Assembly: GCA_032622095.1 (NCBI GenBank) | Contig: CP136065.1 | Span: 214,872,151-214,936,150 of the forward strand | DNA length: 64,000 nucleotides | Direction of reading: 5' to 3' | DNA from: Siphonodentalium dalli | Lineage: Eukaryota; Mollusca; Scaphopoda; Gadilida; Siphonodentaliidae | In this document: piece after piece, positions 1,619 to 63,610 of the stretch | How positions within the stretch are numbered: position 1 is the stretch's first letter | Layout: the number at the start of each line of letters is the position of its first letter | The notes under the pieces: generated by a model | Told to the model about the DNA's origin: nothing | The model's input: the letters and a program-made list of their open reading frames with translations, nothing else | Databases searched by the model: none | Translations under genes and position numbers: made by a program

Positions 1619-2602
1619 TTTGATAAATGTATAACATGACGCAAAAGTTCTAACATTTTCCCACAGAGACAAACGAAAGGTGGTGACATGTCAGAAAAAT
1701 AGCATATTTTCACATTTCGGCGGCCATCTTGGCCGCCATATTGGATTCTGGTGTCGGATTTTTGGCTAATTTGTAAGGGTTGTATATTAGCATAACGAAT
1801 CGAGCGGAAAACAAGACCGCATGTGCTATCATCTTTACTATAATGGCGATCAAAGAGACCTGGTGCATTTAAAAAAAATGGCCGCCATGATGGACGCCAT
1901 CTTGTCTGGAGTCTCTGCGGCCACTTTTTTTTCTTGTTAACAAGTGAAAAAAATTAGAGTAGACCGTAAGGAAGAAAATTAGTGGGGTGAAGTTAAGTCC
2001 TGGGGGGGGGTGCAGAGGTCGACCAATATCTCCTGGACTATAGGGGTGTTAGGATGGGACTTTCCAACATTTGGAAAGTTTGATGTACCAGTTGAACAGT
2101 TCCAAAACAAGGGGTAGGGTGCAAATACAATTTAATTAGTCTCAGAAAATCACGGTCTGCATCAAGGGGTGGAGTTGGAAATTCCAAGATGGACACTCAA
2201 AGTATAGCTAGAACATCTGCTCACGTCCACGTGCTAAAAGGACGTGAACCCTAGCAAAAAACACCGCATAATATTAGTGTCGCCTGAATGCATATAGGAT
2301 ATGTTTCGAAATATTCAAAGCCGCTATATTTTGTAATGGTACACTATAATGTTAGCATTCTCGTATACAGCGTCCTTTTATGTGCGTGTCAGGTTGTTCA
2401 ATAACGCCGGTGTTGTATGTAGAATTGCGACTTTCTTGTCGACGGTGAATGCGTCTTCGTTTATTTAGTTCATGCAATGACGATGTTTTGGTTATTTTTG
2501 ATTACTTTGTCCTTCATATCGGATAATTTGGCAGCTCAGCAGATACCTACAAATACATGTGAGTTACATAGTCTGTTAACACTGTTTTATTCAAATTTAA
2601 AT
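1619..2602. repeat. Tandem duplicated 5' block, copy 2
   Basis: This is the second copy of 1-985, differing at a handful of sites, for example in a G-run near 2004. It ends at 2602, after which the sequence is unrelated to copy 1. The only material between the copies is the ~175-bp repeat region and a short unique stretch. Confidence 0.93.
2477..2558 (+). CDS. Candidate signal-peptide first exon, copy 2
   Basis: Identical in coding sequence to 860-941: 27 codons and a phase-1 GTGAGT donor at 2559-2564. It is the copy nearest the downstream candidate microexon at 3530-3538. It is therefore the simpler first exon for the proposed secreted F-type lectin gene. The ATG CAA TGA upstream frame is kept at 2472-2480. 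Conservation of the peptide between duplicates could reflect either recent duplication or selection; the flanks are nearly as similar, so it does not prove function. Confidence 0.6.
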
Positions 2603-3529
2603 ATGCTATAAGTTAAGTTGTTTATGTTATGCGACAGTTACATGTGCCATTGCATTCTGATTGTTTGTGATATTTATGTAGGTAGTCGCCACTATAGTCT
2701 GCGAGATGAACTTTCTGCATGATGTGATCAGGCTGATGATTGGATAAGATATTTATAAGTCATGTACTCGTCACATCTGATACGCTACCCGATGATCGCG
2801 GCCGAATTAGGATCATATCAGTGTTCCGTTTTGACTGTCAGACAGCGACCTATTTTGACACTCGTTTCCAGTTTAGGAGTCCTTTACTCGATTTTACCAT
2901 TTTGTTATATCGTCTTCTCGTAGTGTGGAAGTGAAGACAAAACGCCGATACTATATGCCTATTTTAATTATGTTGCTGAACGATGGGTGACACCATTGTG
3001 AGTATGAATATTACTGTACATCAATCATGTGTTAACTGTTGTGTTAAACTGAGCGGTGTTGACTCCTCTGTTACGCCCGCTAACAACTCGCTAGCTAGCA
3101 GGTAGAATTCTGCCAGGAGAATGTTTTTTTTTATAGTTCCATGTTACACCACAATTTACCTAGCACGCGTGCGAATATAAGTTCTCTCCGGGAGCATCGA
3201 TGGTGCATTGATATTTGATATATGGTATTCGATTGTATTAATAATGGGATGTGTATAGAACATATCCCCGCGAGGATCCGTATCGCAAATAACAGTGATC
3301 TCTGACTGCGCAGACGATAATAAACTGCCATTTGCTCACTCGTATATGTTAACGTGATGATGGAAACACTACATAACGAACCCGGTATTCTGATGAAATG
3401 GTTTAAATATAACAGCATGCAAGCCAATCCTAACTAATTACAGATAATGCCATCTTGTCCATTCAATATACCCAATATATCACATAACCTAGAAAACATT
3501 AGAATTGATTTATAACTTTTTTATTGCAG
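2603..3529. other. Unique sequence, no gene recognised
   Basis: No coding similarity or repeat was recognised. A frame on the minus strand at 3131-3427 lacks any family signature. If the lectin gene model is right, this is the first intron. Confidence 0.5.
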
Positions 3530-3538
3530 TATTTGGAG
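3530..3538 (+). CDS. Candidate 9-nt microexon of the F-type lectin gene
   Basis: The nonamer TATTTGGAG sits between a polypyrimidine acceptor (ACTTTTTTATTGCAG, ending 3529) and a strong donor (GTAAGG, 3539-3544). It accepts phase 1 and leaves phase 1, matching both the signal-peptide exon and the lectin exon at 57893. Inserted, it adds Leu-Phe-Gly and turns the first lectin residue from Tyr into Asp. The domain then begins DNIAYG, closer to the usual F-type lectin start (D/E-N-x-A-x-G). A second GT donor at 3548 (GTAAAA) would give an 18-nt version in the same phase. Chance occurrence of such a small AG..GT pair is possible. Confidence 0.4.
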
Positions 3539-4770
3539 GTAAGGCAAGTAAAATGTGTCGACAAACACTGAATGAAACTATGCATATCAGATATCATTTT
3601 AAAAAGGTAGGACATGACGTCGGTTTAAAATGAGCAGAACTAGTTCAGGTATCTGGACCGATTTGTGCAACGGTTAAAGGTCAAATGGCCAAATGATGTG
3701 TTTTTTTAAATACACTGAATAAATCAAGATCAGTATATGGGATCTTATATGGCAGAAATTCTTATTGCATCCGTGAAAGATTTTGTAGCGCCTTTTTGAC
3801 CTCGCAAAATGTATGTGATGTTCTTGTTTATATAATCTTGAAATATTTGTTGAATTTATAAACAAATGCCAACCAACATGGTTGCGAAATTACTCCAATG
3901 TTAGGCACTTTTCAAAAAAATATGCAATTATATTATTGACATTCTCTGCTCTGCTCACATAATTTAGACAGCTAGGAAGTTAAACGTGAAAGCTATTAAA
4001 TGTGTATTCGGGATTGGAATTCCAAACCATCAATTACAACAACATAGTTGAACATACATACAAAATTCAATTTAACAGCGATATGAGCTTTGTTGTGATA
4101 CAAAATGAGGTATATCAATTAAAATTATTGATGCAAAACATTTAACTTGTGTTAAAGAAAAACAACACAACATAATCGTTTGGTTGGAAGAGCAATGATT
4201 TCGATGACAGAAGTATAATACTATTTTGGCTAGCCGCTTAAAAGCAATCAAATTCCCTTTTCCGGTATATCAATACGCAATTCAAGCAAAATTATAATTC
4301 TTCCAGACAGAAGTATTCTAAACTACAGGATCAACTAAGTTTCAATTGTAAACTATTAATATGATTGTGTTGTTTATATTAATATGTGATATTTTCATAT
4401 TCGGTCGAAAGATCGTCAGTGCTCGAATTTGTATAATGCTTCTACCTCCGACTTTAACTCAACTTTGCCAATCTTACCCAGGTGTCAAATTTCCATTTAT
4501 CTCACGAGCTAGCTAACACGTTTGTCCCTCACAACAATGTGTCTATTATATCTTAATGGAAATGTGGTTTTCATTCATCCTCACGTTGACAATTAAATTA
4601 AATTTATTAGATACTCTCATCGTATAATAATACATATTGAGAAGAAATGTGTTAGTGCATGCAATTCACAATTATGTGTATGCATATATGTATATATTGG
4701 GAATTAAACGGGGTATTTGTGTATTCATAAGAAAGGTTGGCGTAATTTGGCAGTCATGTGCATATATTTC
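3539..4770. other. AT-rich non-coding stretch
   Basis: No gene, LINE or clear repeat was recognised. The minus-strand frame at 3674-3865 looks accidental. Under the gene model this begins the ~54 kb second intron. Confidence 0.5.
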
Positions 4771-18830: not shown

Positions 18831-20159
18831 CCACCATTTCATGGGACACTGGTTGGATTGTTCTGAAATGTAGTATCGGATTTAGGGGACCTTGATATAT
18901 TTTTCAGACAAGCTGATGCCCCAAAGAAGCCACTTTTTCTCACATTTGCTGAAATAGTATCCAAAACATCAACATATCAAGAGCCATTAGACTGAATTAG
19001 ATAAAAATATATCACTTGGGTCTGTTTAAGCTGGAAAATACTCAAATTTTTTATAATTTTCTGCTATTATATCTGCATACTAGCCTTTTTGCTGAATCGT
19101 GAATGCCGGTTATATTGCCGTGTGAAATCCTAGTACCAGATAACATTGGGTATGTACATGTATATAGCATACCACCTGAAAATGGCTTGAATATCACATA
19201 CCAAAGCGGGGTGGGGGTGTGTGTGACACCCTCCTTGATCATAGTCTGTATTCTACAGGGTATGTTAACTGTTTCGAGTTGGTGCAATTAATGTGATTGT
19301 TTAATCTCTACCATCTGAAATCTATTTATAGCATATTTTGCTATCTGATCAATATTGCTACTTAGTACTGATATAAAACAGGATAAAGATGGTGTGTCTC
19401 TTTCCCGAATGTTCTGTTTACATGTACATTTGGGGGTTTATGAGTCAAATAATATCAGACAACATGTCCTTCTAACACTAAGAAATAATATGTTCTTATG
19501 AACCAGGACAAAATATGACTATTTCTGGAGCATTACAGCACATTATTACAAATCTATATTTGTAAGCAGTAAGATAATGACAGGAAACATGTCCTCAGAC
19601 TAAGAAATAATTTTTTGGTGTGTATTTCACACCACAGCTCATGTGTATACTCACATTAGTTTATGTCATTCAAAGGGAGAAACCCATTTAGAAAGTTTAA
19701 ATGAGACAAAACTACCTCACTGTAGATGTAGTTGCAAGGTACAACATGTACATGTATTCTGGTAAATGACATTGGAACTAAAATAATGATTTTTGTGTCC
19801 ACCGGTATGTCATGTACCGGTACTAGTATACATTGCAACTACATGTACATGTAACTTGCCTAACATACCATATACATGTATGAAGAGGGACTTTGCAAGT
19901 GTTTTTTAATCAAAATTTTAACCCAACTCTTGTTGTCAGTAAGTTTTAACCCATGCAGTTTAATGAGTTTATATATTTATATATTACATGTGTTTCTATA
20001 CATGTATTTTATCTTTAGTTAGTTTGTTGTCCTTGAATAAACTTGTATTGCTGCACAATCAGTTTCCTTAATGTTCTATTATACTAAAACAACTCCATTG
20101 ATAACAATACCCCTGCATCCCATCAAAATCTACTTCATTGCCATCCTCATCATTTCACT
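18831..20159. other. Non-coding, ACATGTAC/ACCGGTA-rich
   Basis: No genes were recognised. Palindromic words such as GTACATGTA and CCGGTACTAGTA recur at 19150, 19745 and 19815-19850. The frames at 19051-19291 overlap on both strands and are not supported. Confidence 0.45.
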
Positions 20160-20169
20160 TTGGTATCCC

Positions 20170-20860
20170 CACCCAGCTGTACCTTGGTGTTATTCACCCA
20201 GGTGTTCCTTGGTGTTTCCTACCCATGTGTACCTTGGTGTTTTCTTACCCAGGTGTACCTTGGTGTTTTCTTACCCAGGTGTACCTTGGTGTTTTCTTAC
20301 CCAGGTGTACCTTGGTGTTTTCCTGCCCAGGTGTACCTTGGTGTTTCCTTACCTGGGTGTACCTTGGGGTTTTCTAACCCAGGTGCATCTCAATGGGAAA
20401 TCCACCTGGGTAAGAAAACACCAAGGTACACCGGCGTAAAAAAAAACACCAAGGTATACCTGGGTTGGAAACATCAAGGTACACCTGGGTGGGGAACACC
20501 CAGGTAGGAAACACCAGGGTACACCTGGGTGAATAACACCAAGGTACACCTGGGTGGGAAACACCCAGGTAGGAAACACCAGGGTACACCTGGGTGAATA
20601 ACACCAAGGTACACCTGGGTGGGAAACACCCAGGTAGGAAACACCAGGGTACACCTGGGTGAATAACACCAAGGTAACCTGGATGGGAAACACCCAGGTA
20701 GGAAACACCAGGGTACACCTGGGTAAATAACACCATGGTACACCTGGGTGGGGAAACACCCAGGTAGGAAACACCAGGGTAGACCTGGGTGGGAAACACC
20801 CAGGTAGGGTACACCTGGGTGTGGTCACCTGGGTAATTACACCCAGGTTTACCCATACCA
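20170..20860. repeat. Inverted minisatellite: 27-bp units, then 65-bp higher-order units in reverse
   Basis: About eight head-to-tail copies of a 27-bp unit (ACCCAGGTGTACCTTGGTG plus spacer) run to ~20390. The sequence then flips and the inverse unit continues to ~20860. In the right half, four larger units of 65 bp are visible, since GAATAACACC recurs at 20531, 20596 and 20661. The whole region can fold back on itself. Frames of up to 160 codons on both strands (VYLGVF/PGVPWCF repeats) are pure repeat translation. Confidence 0.93.
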
Positions 20861-24032: not shown

Positions 24033-24785
24033 TATATGTAAATCAATTTCGTCAATGTTTTGTTTTCATTAAAGGAAATTGAAAATTCATTGATGATTTC
24101 ATCATCTCAACATTTCATTAAAGCGATGCTTTATGTTCACACACATCGTTTCATTCGGGCAACAGTTTTCCATTTCTACACTGCCCATTGCATTGATCGT
24201 CTTCAACGGGGATAATCTAGGGCGGTTTTGGGGGTGGGGGTGTCTCGTCCCCCACAACTTAGGTCAAAATTTTCAAATTCATACCTGCCAAAACATAAGT
24301 TGGAGATTTCACACCAACAGTAGGTTGAAAATGTTCCTGTATTCTGATTTTCAAACAATTTATTGGGGGGGGGGGGGGGGTTACCGGTTATTGTTTTTGG
24401 ACCAATATATGTATATTTTCCTATTTTTGTCAAAATTTTCGACTGAAATGGTCATCAGTTGGAAATTTTCATACGGTACCTTAGGGGTGGCTGACAGGTT
24501 AGCAATTTCCAACACTTGGGAAAAGTTGTCTCCTGGTCCCTCCCCCGTAGCCAGTCAAAAACTGCTAGTTAATTTAAGAAAACAATAATGACTTAATTTT
24601 GTTCTGACGTGCGGGGGGGGGGGGGGTAGATTGTGTGAGAACCCACCACAGTTTAATTCACAGCAGGTTCTCAGCTATTATTATATGATGTTCAAACTTT
24701 AGTCATATGTTTGGACTGATCATAATCATGATTTTATGCTTGAATAGTTCACAAGGTGTGCAATGTCAGGTAGTTTTCAACTTTA
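24033..24785. other. G-run-rich non-coding stretch
   Basis: Poly-G runs lie at about 24364-24380 and 24612-24627. The 151-codon frame at 24133-24588 has no domain and reads through a poly-Gly G-run. I do not call it a gene. Confidence 0.5.
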
Positions 24786-26293: not shown

Positions 26294-27716
26294 TCAAAGC
26301 CCGGACGAAGTCGGGTCACCTTCTAGTATATATATTGATATATATATTCTGTCCCTGGTGAATCTACCTGATTTGTTGAACTCCGATCCGAGGTATTTAT
26401 AGTTGTTTACAACTCCTATTTTTTCCGAGTTTAAACTAAATTGTGCCTCCTTAATTTTCTTGCGACTTCTTCCGAATATTACGATATTTGTTTTCGAGAG
26501 GTTTATTTTCATCTTCCAGATATCGCAATATTCTGTGAATTTATTTAATGAATGTTGGAGACCTTCCTTTGTATTCGATATAAGTATGGTAGTGTCCGCA
26601 TATAACAGAAGGAGAAGTTTAAGGTAAAAGCCGGTGTCCGAATTTCTAATTTTGTCCAAGTTGAAACCGTCACATCCACAACTCATAAGGTATTCATGTA
26701 AGTTATTTAGATATATGGAAAAAAGAATCGGGGAAAGGCTGCCTCCATGTTTCAAGCCTACGTAACGACGTTGACGTCGATTCGCGATCTTTTAGGCATA
26801 ATCTCATATTGTGATACAAGCCGTTGATAACTCGCAAGATTTTGCCTGAAACATTGCAACTGTGTAGCTTTGTCCAAAGGTCTTCTCTGTGAATTAGATC
26901 GAAAGCTTTGGACAAATCAACAAACGCACAGAAAAGATTCTCCCTGTTGATATTTGCTAAGTTGGTCAGGGTATAAAGATTGAACATATGATCTATTGTG
27001 AGCACCCTTTGCGAAAGCCAGCATTAAATTCTGATTGGATGCGATTTCGTTCGATGTAAGCAGATGTACGTTTGCTTAAGATACTGGTGAAAACTTTTGA
27101 CATACAACTCAATAGTGTTATCCTGCGGTAGTTGTCTGGATTTGAAGTGTCATTCTTAATGACTCCAATATCCCAGTCAGTTTGAATAACACATGTATCG
27201 AATATAACATTAAAGTAAGGTGTATAAAAGTCACATAGAAATGGTCAGCTATGTTTAATAAATGAGTTATTAACATTGTCACATCTCGGGGCGATGCCTG
27301 ATTTCAACGATTTAACGACGTTCTCTATTTCGGTTTTAGAAATTGGCCCGTTCAAAGAATTGTCATGCAGTCGTGATTCCGGGTTGGACTCTGGTTGGGT
27401 ATTGGTTTGGCTGACGCCTGTATCTGCCATAGCCGATAACGCGAGTTCTTCGTTTTCGTAGTGCGATCTGAAGCTCTCTACTGTGGGGCGTGGTAGTTCA
27501 CGTGTTTTTTTAAAGAAGTTTCCGGACATCTTTGCTGGAATTAGTGCGAAAGTTATGTAACTTTGTTCTTATACCCGCATTATATTTCATTTTACTTCTG
27601 GTTAATGCCATTTTGTATTGTTGTCTTCTTTTAATAATTAACGCCCATCGGGTGTATACTTGTGGGCATATTTTAGATAGCTGGTTGTGTGTGGAGGTTT
27701 TGTAAATAGATAATTG
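26294..27716 (-). pseudogene. Non-LTR retrotransposon reverse transcriptase, frameshifted and mutated
   Basis: Reading the minus strand from 27716: TRWALIIKRRQQYKMA and NAGIRTKLHNFRT precede the RT. After a frameshift at an A-run (~27510) comes SKTEIENVVKSLKSG, a normal RT N-terminal segment. The next frame (27005-26703) has motif A as FCAFVDLSKAFDLIHREDL. The following frame (26755-26294) has motif B as GGSLSPILFSIYLNNL and motif C as LLYADTTIL, where the catalytic YADD has become YADT. SKTNIVIFGRS and NNYKYLG follow as expected. The element stops at a TATATA run near 26330 without its C-terminus. At least three frame changes and the lost aspartate mean it is dead. Confidence 0.9.
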
Positions 27717-53400: not shown

Positions 53401-54944
53401 TACATAATTTGTGTTTATGAAAGTCTGGCACCCATTAGCAGTTTGTTTTCAGTACATTTTAATATTCATTGGAACGTAAACAATTATTCGCTGACAGAAA
53501 TCATGTTAATATCGCCTTTCGTTACTGGTTTCCTCGACTCAAATATTTCTCACTGCTCAATACTTATAATTAAAAAAAATGTTCTGTGTTTTGTGTCACT
53601 TCTTAATAGCATTATGTATTCTGCTATTGACAAGAAACAAAGTTGCAGTATACCTTAAAGGTACGGAAGGCCTTGGTGGGTATCCTGTGAACATATTTCC
53701 ACCTGTCAAAAACCGCTACAAACGAAAATAATATTCAAATATAGACATACTTTGTTAATATACAAATGAGAAATATCTCATAAACAGTATGTTATTGTCG
53801 TAAATTTGACGATTGTTATGTAAACAAAGCATAAAAAGTTACTTTCTTGGTGTTTCTTTATATTATGATGGTAAACATAAAGAGCGTTCTTTGTTGCTCA
53901 ATTCCTTATTTGGAAATAATAAAGAGCGTTTATACCATTTGTGTGTGATTAGCCAGTAGCATTGTGCTGCCTTATATAACACAATCAGACTCTTGTTTAG
54001 GTAAAATTTAGTAGGTCTTTATGTGAGCATGATGTTTACGCGATAGTGATCGTATATTTGAACCAAAATGTATGCGTTTTAATATTTTTCTGTTTACGGT
54101 GTTTGGAACAAATATGAATATTTTCGACAACTAAGCCCCCTCGTCACTTTAATATAATTAATATAACATCCCTCATCGAATAATCTCCAAATTGCATATC
54201 TAATTTCAATCCTAGTTACACGTCACGCCGCCCCTCATCATTTGCCAATTGTACACCCTTTTTTTTGCTGCTGCTGCAACTGTTCAATTTCTTAAAAAAT
54301 TATTGAAAAAATGGCCCTCCCGCCCGCCGACATTTACCTCTGATTTTTTTTTATCATCGGTCCGCACCAAAATTGAGCACACGTCCCTATATAATATACC
54401 TATTTAAACCGAGTATACACGGTGGTGTAATAGATCAACCGTTAATTTAACCGTTTAGGTAGCATATTTCCACGTATACGTTATCACGACAAATCCCTGC
54501 TGATCTGTTATTAATGAACCAAACACTTAACATGTCAACACACTCTGGCCCGCCAATGCTACAGTGTATAAACGTAACGGGGCAAATATGCACATTATAT
54601 TGGCAGCTAACGAGAGCATTCATCATCAGCAATCTGCTCACCCCTTTTAGCCGATACGATAGAAACTAAACGATTTGTTACTTCTAATTACCCGTACTTA
54701 ATTACACTACTTGCGTGTTAATAAAGTACGACCCCATTACCACTAAAGGTGAAACATGGGTTTTAGAACATTAATATTCACTCTTACATAGTTCCACATT
54801 CAAGGTGTAATCGTATGTCAGTTGTAACGTTGTGAAACTGCAACCGAACTGAATTATTCTATGCTAAATAGTTCATGGCTGACCTGATGCATGCATCTTA
54901 GTTTTCTTGTTATAACCTGACCTGAAAAGTGCAGGGGTGTCATG
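53401..54944. other. No gene recognised
   Basis: AAAGAGCGTT words at 53879 and 53930 are inverse copies of the AACGCTCTTT word at 48-52 kb. Nothing else was seen. Confidence 0.4.
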
Positions 54945-55750: not shown

Positions 55751-56640
55751 ACTTAGAATCAAGCCTATACTCCACAGGGGCGGTCCGGGCTGGTCCGGGT
55801 CGGTCGGGCGGTGTTTAGTCACGCCCCATATACGTATCTGCATATATCTATGTCAGTTATGTTTTTCAGCGATTGAGCCTTTCTATTGTGCTTGTACTGG
55901 TCTGTGTGCTATGTTCAATCTATCCTCATCGGCTGTTTCATGAATCGGACTGTGGAATACAAATTGATTCAAAACTTTAATATTAATAGGAATACACATC
56001 ATGTAGGCCACATCATCTCGGCGACTTGGGTTCGGGACACACTGACATCATCTAACTTGTATTTAGATATAAACATAAATTTTAAAATACAAGAAAAAGA
56101 GTCACACATACATAATTATACAAACATTACCCGTGTGCATCATGTGACGTCGGGCATCCAAATACGGGATCAAAGCCCCTTTAATCGAAACTATATAACA
56201 CGATGTTAAACTTAAACACGTCTTCATACCACAACGTCACCAAAGAGACACCCTGACAGACCGAATCAGGGAATACATACCGAACTGATGTAAGACATGC
56301 GCATTGTTCACAACAATATCTATGGTATAACGAATGCGTAATCATCGAAAGATATCAGAAATAATTTTCTTTAAGTATTGGTTGGAAGATAATTATAGAA
56401 CAGTTTACAATGACTCACCTCTTCACAGATCTATGATGGCTGTGAAAGACCAATCGGTATATTTTACTCTTTAAAACTGGCCAATCGGGCTACTATAGTA
56501 ATATAGATCGATCGGTGATTCACTCATGCAGTCCCAGACCGATACGTGTACATGTAGCTGATTTTGTGTTTATATAGGGGCCCATACTAGTAATCACATG
56601 ATATGGATAAAATGTGTGTGTTTGTGTCAGAACTTTTGTA
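55751..56640. other. No gene recognised; dispersed-repeat fragment near 56446-56546
   Basis: The stretch with ATCGATCGGTGATTCA and CCAGACCGAT resembles the interior blocks of the 22340-23577 element. The frames here are unsupported. Confidence 0.4.
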
Positions 56641-57892: not shown

Positions 57893-58105
57893 ATAACATA
57901 GCTTACGGGAGAAGTGGTGAAAATCAGACTGGCATCTCGTCTAAGTATGGGTCAGGAGTATGGGAGAAGGAAAACGGGGTCGATGGTGCCAAACAGGAGC
58001 CTCCATCGGGTGTTCATACGGTTAATGGGGGTGAAGATAACCCATACTGGTGGGTCGATATTGGTGCCACACTCCCTATACGCCGGATAATATTTTACAA
58101 TCGAG
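57893..58105 (+). CDS. F-type lectin (F5/8 type C, fucolectin-like) domain, N-terminal half exon
   Basis: The acceptor (TTTATTTCAG) and donor (GTCAGT at 58106) bound a 213-nt exon, phase 1 in and phase 1 out. The 70 full codons start NIAYGRSGENQTG and continue VWEKENGVDG (canonical NGVDG), GVHTVNGGEDNPYWWVDIGA and RRIIFYNR. The WWVDIG and FYNR motifs are hallmarks of the F-type lectin fold, a calcium-associated sugar-binding beta-barrel. NQT is a possible N-glycosylation site. Joined to 62745-62966 it completes a ~145-residue domain, the normal family length. With the proposed signal-peptide exons upstream the product would be secreted or the outside part of a receptor. The sugar is unknown. 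Confidence 0.92.
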
Positions 58106-60439: not shown

Positions 60440-60890
60440 ATACCGGTACTCAATCATGGGCAATTTATCAAGACACGATTTAAGAGGGAGGTCAAGTGAC
60501 CAATTTTGAATGGGGATTTCCAAGCAAATCTGCGGAGCAAAAGTTACAAAGTTGCACATACCTCTGAGGGTGACTTGTTGTGGTGTTGGAAAGAACATTT
60601 ATCTATCTGGCGGGTCCGCTTGGAACTTGTTGGTGTATTTATTTTTTAATTTTATATTGATTTTTCAAATGTAGGTCAACTGGTGTTAACTTAATCCAAA
60701 AAATATTTATCAAAAATATATTTATAGCAAAATTGTATAATTTACCAAGCGGACCGGCCAGATAGGCCTGTTGTTTTCAAATTCACATCAGGTCACACTC
60801 ATACGTATGTGCAACTATGTAACTTTTGCTCTGCAGATTTGCATGGAAATCCCTATTCAACATTATTCACTTGACTCATGAGTATCGGCT
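60440..60890. mobile_element. Foldback element, ~450 bp
   Basis: The left arm (GGGGATTTCCAAGCAAATCTG, then GAGCAAAAGTTAC and TCTGGCGGGTCCGCTTGG) is mirrored to the right of 60743 (CCAAGCGGACC, GTAACTTTTGCTC, GATTTGCATGGAAATCCC). The left arm carries a short insertion. The minus frame at 60386-60598 lies in it. Confidence 0.75.
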
Positions 60891-62744: not shown

Positions 62745-62966
62745 TTGGCGCAGTTGGCGAACGGGCGATTGGTTTCCAGATATATGTGTCCAATTCGTCT
62801 TCTTTATCAAGTTGGAATTCAATTACGCTGTGTTACCAAGACAGAAGCAGCAGCTACGAGATTATATATAACATCGACTGCACGAACATGATGGCGGGAA
62901 GATACGTCATTATTATGATACCTGGGAGCAAAAAGTATCTCGGCTTCTACGAAATGGAAGCATACG
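62745..62966 (+). CDS. F-type lectin domain, C-terminal half exon
   Basis: The acceptor TTCTTTGTTCCTCCAG ends at 62744 and the donor GTATGT starts at 62967; the exon is 222 nt, phase 1 in and out. After the split Val it reads GAVGERAIGFQIYVSNSSS, SWNSITLCYQD, NIDCTNMMAGRYVII and YLGFYEMEAYG, a typical domain end. In the joined protein the binding-motif spacing R-x-x-x4-R is kept (R101, R108) but the usual Asp at the third position is Gly. The two Cys (131 and 147) match the conserved disulfide pair. Phase-1 symmetry means the domain could be followed by further modules beyond the window. It could also be one of several tandem lectin domains. Confidence 0.92.
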
Positions 62967-63409: not shown

Positions 63410-63550
63410 AACCTCGTTCAGCCCAGACTGCAATGATCTTATACAAGACCTAACTATCTCGGCTAGCCCAGACTGCAATGATCTTACACAAGAACTAACC
63501 ATCTCGGCTAGCCCAGACTGCAAATATCTTTTACAAGACATAACCATCTC
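63410..63550. repeat. 45-bp repeat, 3 copies, open on both strands
   Basis: AGCCCAGACTGCAATGATCT plus TACAAGACC-TAACTATCTCGGCT repeats three times with about ten changes. It is open in + (SPDCNDLIQDLTISA) and in - (SLQSGLAEIVRSC). It sits in a 141-codon + frame (63180-63605) without a known domain. Confidence 0.8.
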
Positions 63551-63610
63551 AGCTACGGGAACACCATTAATAAGGAAGCCCTTTTGGCGAGCTTATGTCA
63601 CATAATTAAT

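Follow-up and report, generated by a model that had tools for sequence, protein, structure and literature searches.

A possible nine-nucleotide exon in the first-intron region of an F-type-lectin-like gene

The window, by which we mean the whole stretch of 64,000 nucleotides that was analysed, contains on its plus strand two exons that together would encode an F-type-lectin-like domain. The first half of the domain lies at 57893–58105 (213 nt, phase 1-1) and the second half at 62745–62966 (222 nt, phase 1-1), the latter with the acceptor TTGTTCCTCCAG and the donor ACG|GTATGT. The protein obtained by joining the two exons matches Pfam PF22633 (4.7e-10, 40.4 bits against a cut-off of 27.8) and PF00754 (1.5e-6). 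Its closest solved chains are FBP32 (3cqo, 4.8e-16) and, next, the lectin 1k12 (2e-6), which we take to be eel agglutinin. The split of this domain by an intron, together with a reverse-transcriptase fragment described below, suggests that the window is eukaryotic. The domain shares the profile match of F-type lectins such as fish FBP32, eel agglutinin and oyster bindin, but lacks their fucose motif. This motif is given as HX24RXDX4(R/K) in PMC5712786, and it has no match in the domain at any H-to-R spacing from 20 to 33; the segment NRVGAVGER retains both arginines without the aspartate, and the sole histidine is found 28 residues ahead of the NR arginine. “F-type-lectin-like” is a safer name than “fucose lectin”. 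The intron splitting the domain falls right after NR, whereas the domain-splitting introns of FBP32 are placed near residues 123–124 of the eel protein (PMC5712786). Searches for relatives of the lectin domain returned 32 stretches fitting the pattern in genome contigs and 11 in viral contigs, with none confirmed in either of these collections, which are not of animals. The intron between the lectin exons also carries an imperfect inverted repeat (60491–60875), in which about 385 nt match their own reverse complement at 74%. Past the second lectin exon, 63420–63555 holds a 45-bp tandem repeat in three copies with one frame open, made of SPDCNDLIQDLTISA-like units, and the surrounding frame has no Pfam match.

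At the other end of the window lies a putative signal-peptide exon, the coding part of which (MTMFWLFLITLSFISDNLAAQQIPTNT, 2477–2558, plus strand) ends in phase 1 at the donor CAT|GTGAGT. A second, protein-identical copy with the same donor, absent from the first-pass annotation, occupies 860–941 on the same strand. Both are contained in a tandem duplication in which 1–985 and 1619–2602 are 99.2% identical by BLAST, the copies being 1618 bp apart and showing eight differences, none of them in the exon. Both copies of the exon could feed the same downstream exons. The first copy of the duplication starts at the window edge and may reach further upstream. A minimal upstream frame, ATG-CAA-TGA, is present at 2472–2480 (855–863 in the first copy), and its stop codon overlaps the ATG of the signal-peptide exon.

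Between the signal-peptide exon and the lectin exons lies the candidate 9-nt microexon, TATTTGGAG, at 3530–3538 on the plus strand. The AG of its acceptor ends at 3529 and its donor, GTAAGG, occupies 3539–3544, so that the letters and positions are as originally described. The acceptor-like tract AACTTTTTTATTGCAG (3514–3529) is T-rich, with the previous AG at −29, a branch-point-like match (TTGAT) at −22 and TGC at −5, and the local anatomy is orthodox. In themselves the nine letters are nothing unusual, since the window has three occurrences of them, two on the plus strand (3530 and 13070) and one on the minus strand (12160). With phase 1 at both ends, the nonamer links the phase-1 end at 2558 to the phase-1 lectin exon 57893–58105 in frame, again as first proposed. 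The direct join of 2558 to 57893 reads ...QQIPTNT-Y-NIAYG, and the join with the nonamer, in which Leu-Phe-Gly is added and the junction codon becomes GAT, reads ...QQIPTNT-LFGD-NIAYG; the frame is open in both. An 18-nt form ending at a GT 9 bp further downstream (CAA|GTAAAA) also has an open frame, giving ...LFGGKANNIAYG (...LFGGKAN-NIAYG). The first-pass annotation had stated that the lectin junction gains Asp with the nonamer and shows Tyr without it; this holds for the 9-nt form, whereas the 18-nt form places Asn before NIAYG.

Splice sites were scored with two position matrices, neither of them trained on this organism, the second being T-rich; ranks refer to matrix 1 and the plus strand. 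Matrix 1 performs sensibly on the gene's own sites: the lectin exon acceptors rank 9 and 1 of 2809 AGs, and the signal-peptide donor and the two lectin donors rank 19, 33 and 45 of 4228 GTs, with scores of 4.73, 4.14 and 3.68. The nonamer had been credited with a good acceptor and a strong donor. Its donor is indeed the top GT of 4228 (7.27), but its acceptor is only 68th of 2809 AGs (2.77), against ranks 9 and 1 for the lectin acceptors. The in-phase 18-nt version, which had been suggested as an alternative, is poorly supported: its GT is present, but it scores just −0.38 on matrix 1 (0.66 on matrix 2), against 3.68–4.73 on matrix 1 for the other three donors of the gene model.

Some other interpretations of these sites fail on the letters. 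A zero-length recursive splice site is ruled out by reading, as the acceptor is followed by TATTTG and not by GT. A longer coding exon running from an upstream AG to the same donor was also rejected: the AGs at 3314, 3416 and 3503, which lie at a distance divisible by three, have stops in phase 1 and acceptor scores of 1.44, −4.74 and −9.90. Of the eight AGs in 3300–3539, the other three upstream of 3530 (3424, 3444 and 3493) were translated in one frame only, so that the check is a partial one.

Two arguments put forward for the nonamer carry little weight. Phase symmetry was rejected as evidence, since it merely says that 9 divides by 3. The Asp at the junction was likewise rejected as support. 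Any phase-1 exon ending in G yields GAT at the lectin junction, and G is found at −1 in 41 of the 46 donors scoring at least 3.5 between 2600 and 57880 (77 of 86 at a cut-off of 2.5; 14 of 17 at 4.5). Asp is therefore expected from almost any upstream exon, and is nearly uninformative about this one. Thus the proposal that a microexon joins a signal peptide to an F-type lectin keeps its anatomy, which fits and which nothing in the sequence excludes, but phase symmetry and Asp tell us little and the 18-nt variant is weak.

We tentatively favour TATTTGGAG as a real exon of 9 nt and phase 1-1, located in the first-intron region of an animal gene whose secreted or membrane protein would start with an F-type-lectin-like domain; we regard this as possible and place it first among four readings, while holding it to be short of probable. 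The order given here and below is a matter of our own judgement. If the nonamer is such an exon, the spliceosome would join the end of the signal-peptide exon at 2558 to 3530 across an intron of 971 nt, and would then join 3538 to 57893 across 54 kb, the two ends belonging to one transcript into which the nonamer would be spliced. Its strong donor and T-rich tract may be the features by which it is recognised. With inclusion, the short linker that separates signal peptide and domain would gain Leu-Phe-Gly and carry Asp in place of Tyr; it would thereby become three residues longer, and the domain core would be untouched. Skipping would leave the frame intact. A more elaborate version, which we consider unlikely, is that of a regulated 9-nt cassette, fed by the tandem pair of signal-peptide exons with identical protein and preceding the 54-kb intron, that would switch the N-terminal linker between PTNT-Y-N and PTNT-LFGD-N.

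The reading that we place second, and take to be nearly as likely as the first, is that of a chance (cryptic) pair of sites in a long intron that is never, or almost never, spliced, so that the signal-peptide exon would meet the lectin exon directly (with Tyr) or via something else. Against chance, the nonamer is the top acceptor–donor pair spaced 3–30 nt apart on either strand of the 55-kb interval with both matrices. With matrix 1 its margin over the next pair is tiny (10.03, against 9.92 for a 21-nt antisense pair and 9.67 for a repeat-borne 22-nt sense pair), and with matrix 2 it is wide (11.70, the same antisense pair following at 8.66 and the next sense pair at 6.77). This antisense pseudo-microexon (56419–56439, minus strand, donor GTGAGT) is a useful control, and its near equality on matrix 1 speaks for chance. 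So do simulations: an equal or better pair of this spacing at a distance divisible by three arose in 89/500 third-order simulated intervals with matrix 1 and in 29/500 with matrix 2. An earlier, smaller simulation gave an equal pair in 21/100 and 8/100, respectively, and a first-order simulation of 60 sequences averaged 0.18 pairs (matrix 1). When the donor positions were shifted circularly across the whole window, the probability that the best donor has an acceptor this good 3–30 nt upstream at a distance divisible by three was 0.012; with any distance of 3–30 nt allowed, the mean was 0.041. At looser cut-offs, short pairs with spacing divisible by three are not clearly in excess on the plus strand (1 seen against 0.67 expected, 2 against 1.19 and 3 against 1.55), which again favours chance, as do the open frame of the direct join and the scant information in the junction Asp. 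Apart from the nonamer, 2600–57800 has no open internal exon of 3–447 nt and phase 1-1 with an acceptor of at least 2.5 and a donor of at least 3.5, the acceptor cut-off having been placed just under the nonamer's own 2.77. Among internal exons of any phase, 22 combinations of exon and phase pass these thresholds; tandem repeats or a duplicated segment account for most of them, and none but the nonamer is 1-1. Its position adjoining the signal-peptide exon, within 971 nt of the donor and hence in the first 1.8% of the 55,334-nt interval, also argues against a chance pair, although this was noticed post hoc. Taken together, the statistics on the nonamer are borderline, suggestive and no more than that, and we set a low prior because microexons are rare, which is again our judgement.

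The partnership of 2477–2558 with a lectin exon 55 kb away, for which phase and position are the sole basis, is likewise not secure. That distance speaks for a third reading, in which the signal-peptide exon would belong to another transcript, the lectin gene would begin elsewhere (nearer 57893 or outside the window) and the nonamer would have nothing to do with the lectin; we think this rather unlikely. The plus strand contains five signal-peptide-like first exons ending in phase 1 with a donor of at least 3, two of which are the duplicated copies, and the minus strand none. The three rivals, at 53579–53660, 24707–24755 and 19103–19259, all end in G and would likewise give Asp at the lectin junction, and simulation yields 2.2 such exons on average (30 runs). 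With a donor of at least 4.5, three are present on the plus strand, again including the two copies, against a simulated mean of 0.8 (30 runs). By itself, therefore, the signal-peptide exon is not significant as a first exon. On our own reading, the rivals resemble cleavable signal peptides less than 2477–2558 does. Moreover, a partial look, consisting of a search with pieces of the gene's own domain, the scan for 1-1 exons and Pfam on seven chosen frames, revealed no other domain exons in between. Least likely of the four, in our estimate, is that the acceptor at 3530 is real but opens a longer exon of a non-coding, truncated or different transcript, for example the 77 nt at 3530–3606 on the plus strand. 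These are open in phase 1, and their donor (AAG|GTAGGA at 3607), with a score of 4.76, is on a par with that of the signal-peptide exon and surpasses those of the two lectin exons. However, such an exon exits in phase 0, making an in-frame join to the lectin exon impossible, and the donor at 3539 is far stronger.

The size range of animal microexons is put at 3–27 nt in PMC7935315. At 9 nt the nonamer falls within this range, its sites being usable by score alone. The features listed for eMIC microexons in PMC8797185 are a UGC near the acceptor, a long AG-free zone, a UCUC tract and a CUAAY branch point, together with weak 5′ sites in fly. Set against animal microexons (SRRM3/4, eMIC), the nonamer is alike in its length of 9 nt, a multiple of three, and in its T-rich tract. 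It also resembles the eMIC exons described there in having TGC at −5 and no AG from −29 to the junction, a single TGC being weak evidence. It differs in that its tract, CTTTTTTATTGCAG, has no UCUC, and in that TTGAT and TTTAT are the only branch-point-like matches in the 60 nt upstream, with no CUAAY. Its strong donor also contrasts with the weak 5′ sites reported there for fly. eMIC microexons are neural, whereas the candidate gene encodes an extracellular lectin-like protein and its sequence bears no neuronal sign.

Schistosome micro-exon genes (MEG) have very short exons alternating with long introns, according to PMC10526429. As described there, they are similar to the present case in encoding a secreted protein and in having a very short exon between long introns; they differ in that here one short candidate only is present within the window, beside domain exons of 213 and 222 nt, the rest of the gene lying outside the window. 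Phase-1 introns, such as those of the present model, are a usual layout in secreted modular proteins (PMC1626468, PMC7259759). Judged by these, it is ordinary for a signal-peptide exon to be followed by a long first intron of phase 1 and by domain exons of phase 1-1; what would stand out is just the additional 9-nt unit of phase 1-1. Among the literature matches listed, whose titles and abstract openings give partial coverage, none names a microexon in an F-type lectin.

If the nonamer is real, it would add one more to the phase-symmetric microexons already known, and would show microexon splicing in a probable invertebrate at a gene that is extracellular and possibly immune. Automatic annotation could then easily overlook it and put the mature protein's start in the wrong place. 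If it is not real, the locus would be an instructive case of one strong donor mimicking an exon in an intron of 55 kb.

Rfam at gathering thresholds returned no matches, and Pfam on seven other open frames gave one match, the remaining six having none. This match is a reverse-transcriptase fragment at 26297–26791 on the minus strand (PF00078, 7.3e-14), retroelement debris within the long intron. Minisatellites of ACCCAGGT-like units, densely arrayed and in both orientations, fill 20171–20820; they are rich in splice-like AG and GT and so give rise to false exon candidates. Finally, a duplication of several kb relates about 31.5–37.1 kb to 38.2–43.7 kb at an offset of ~6.62 kb, as seen from open frames and tandem arrays that correspond between the two and from weak hits.
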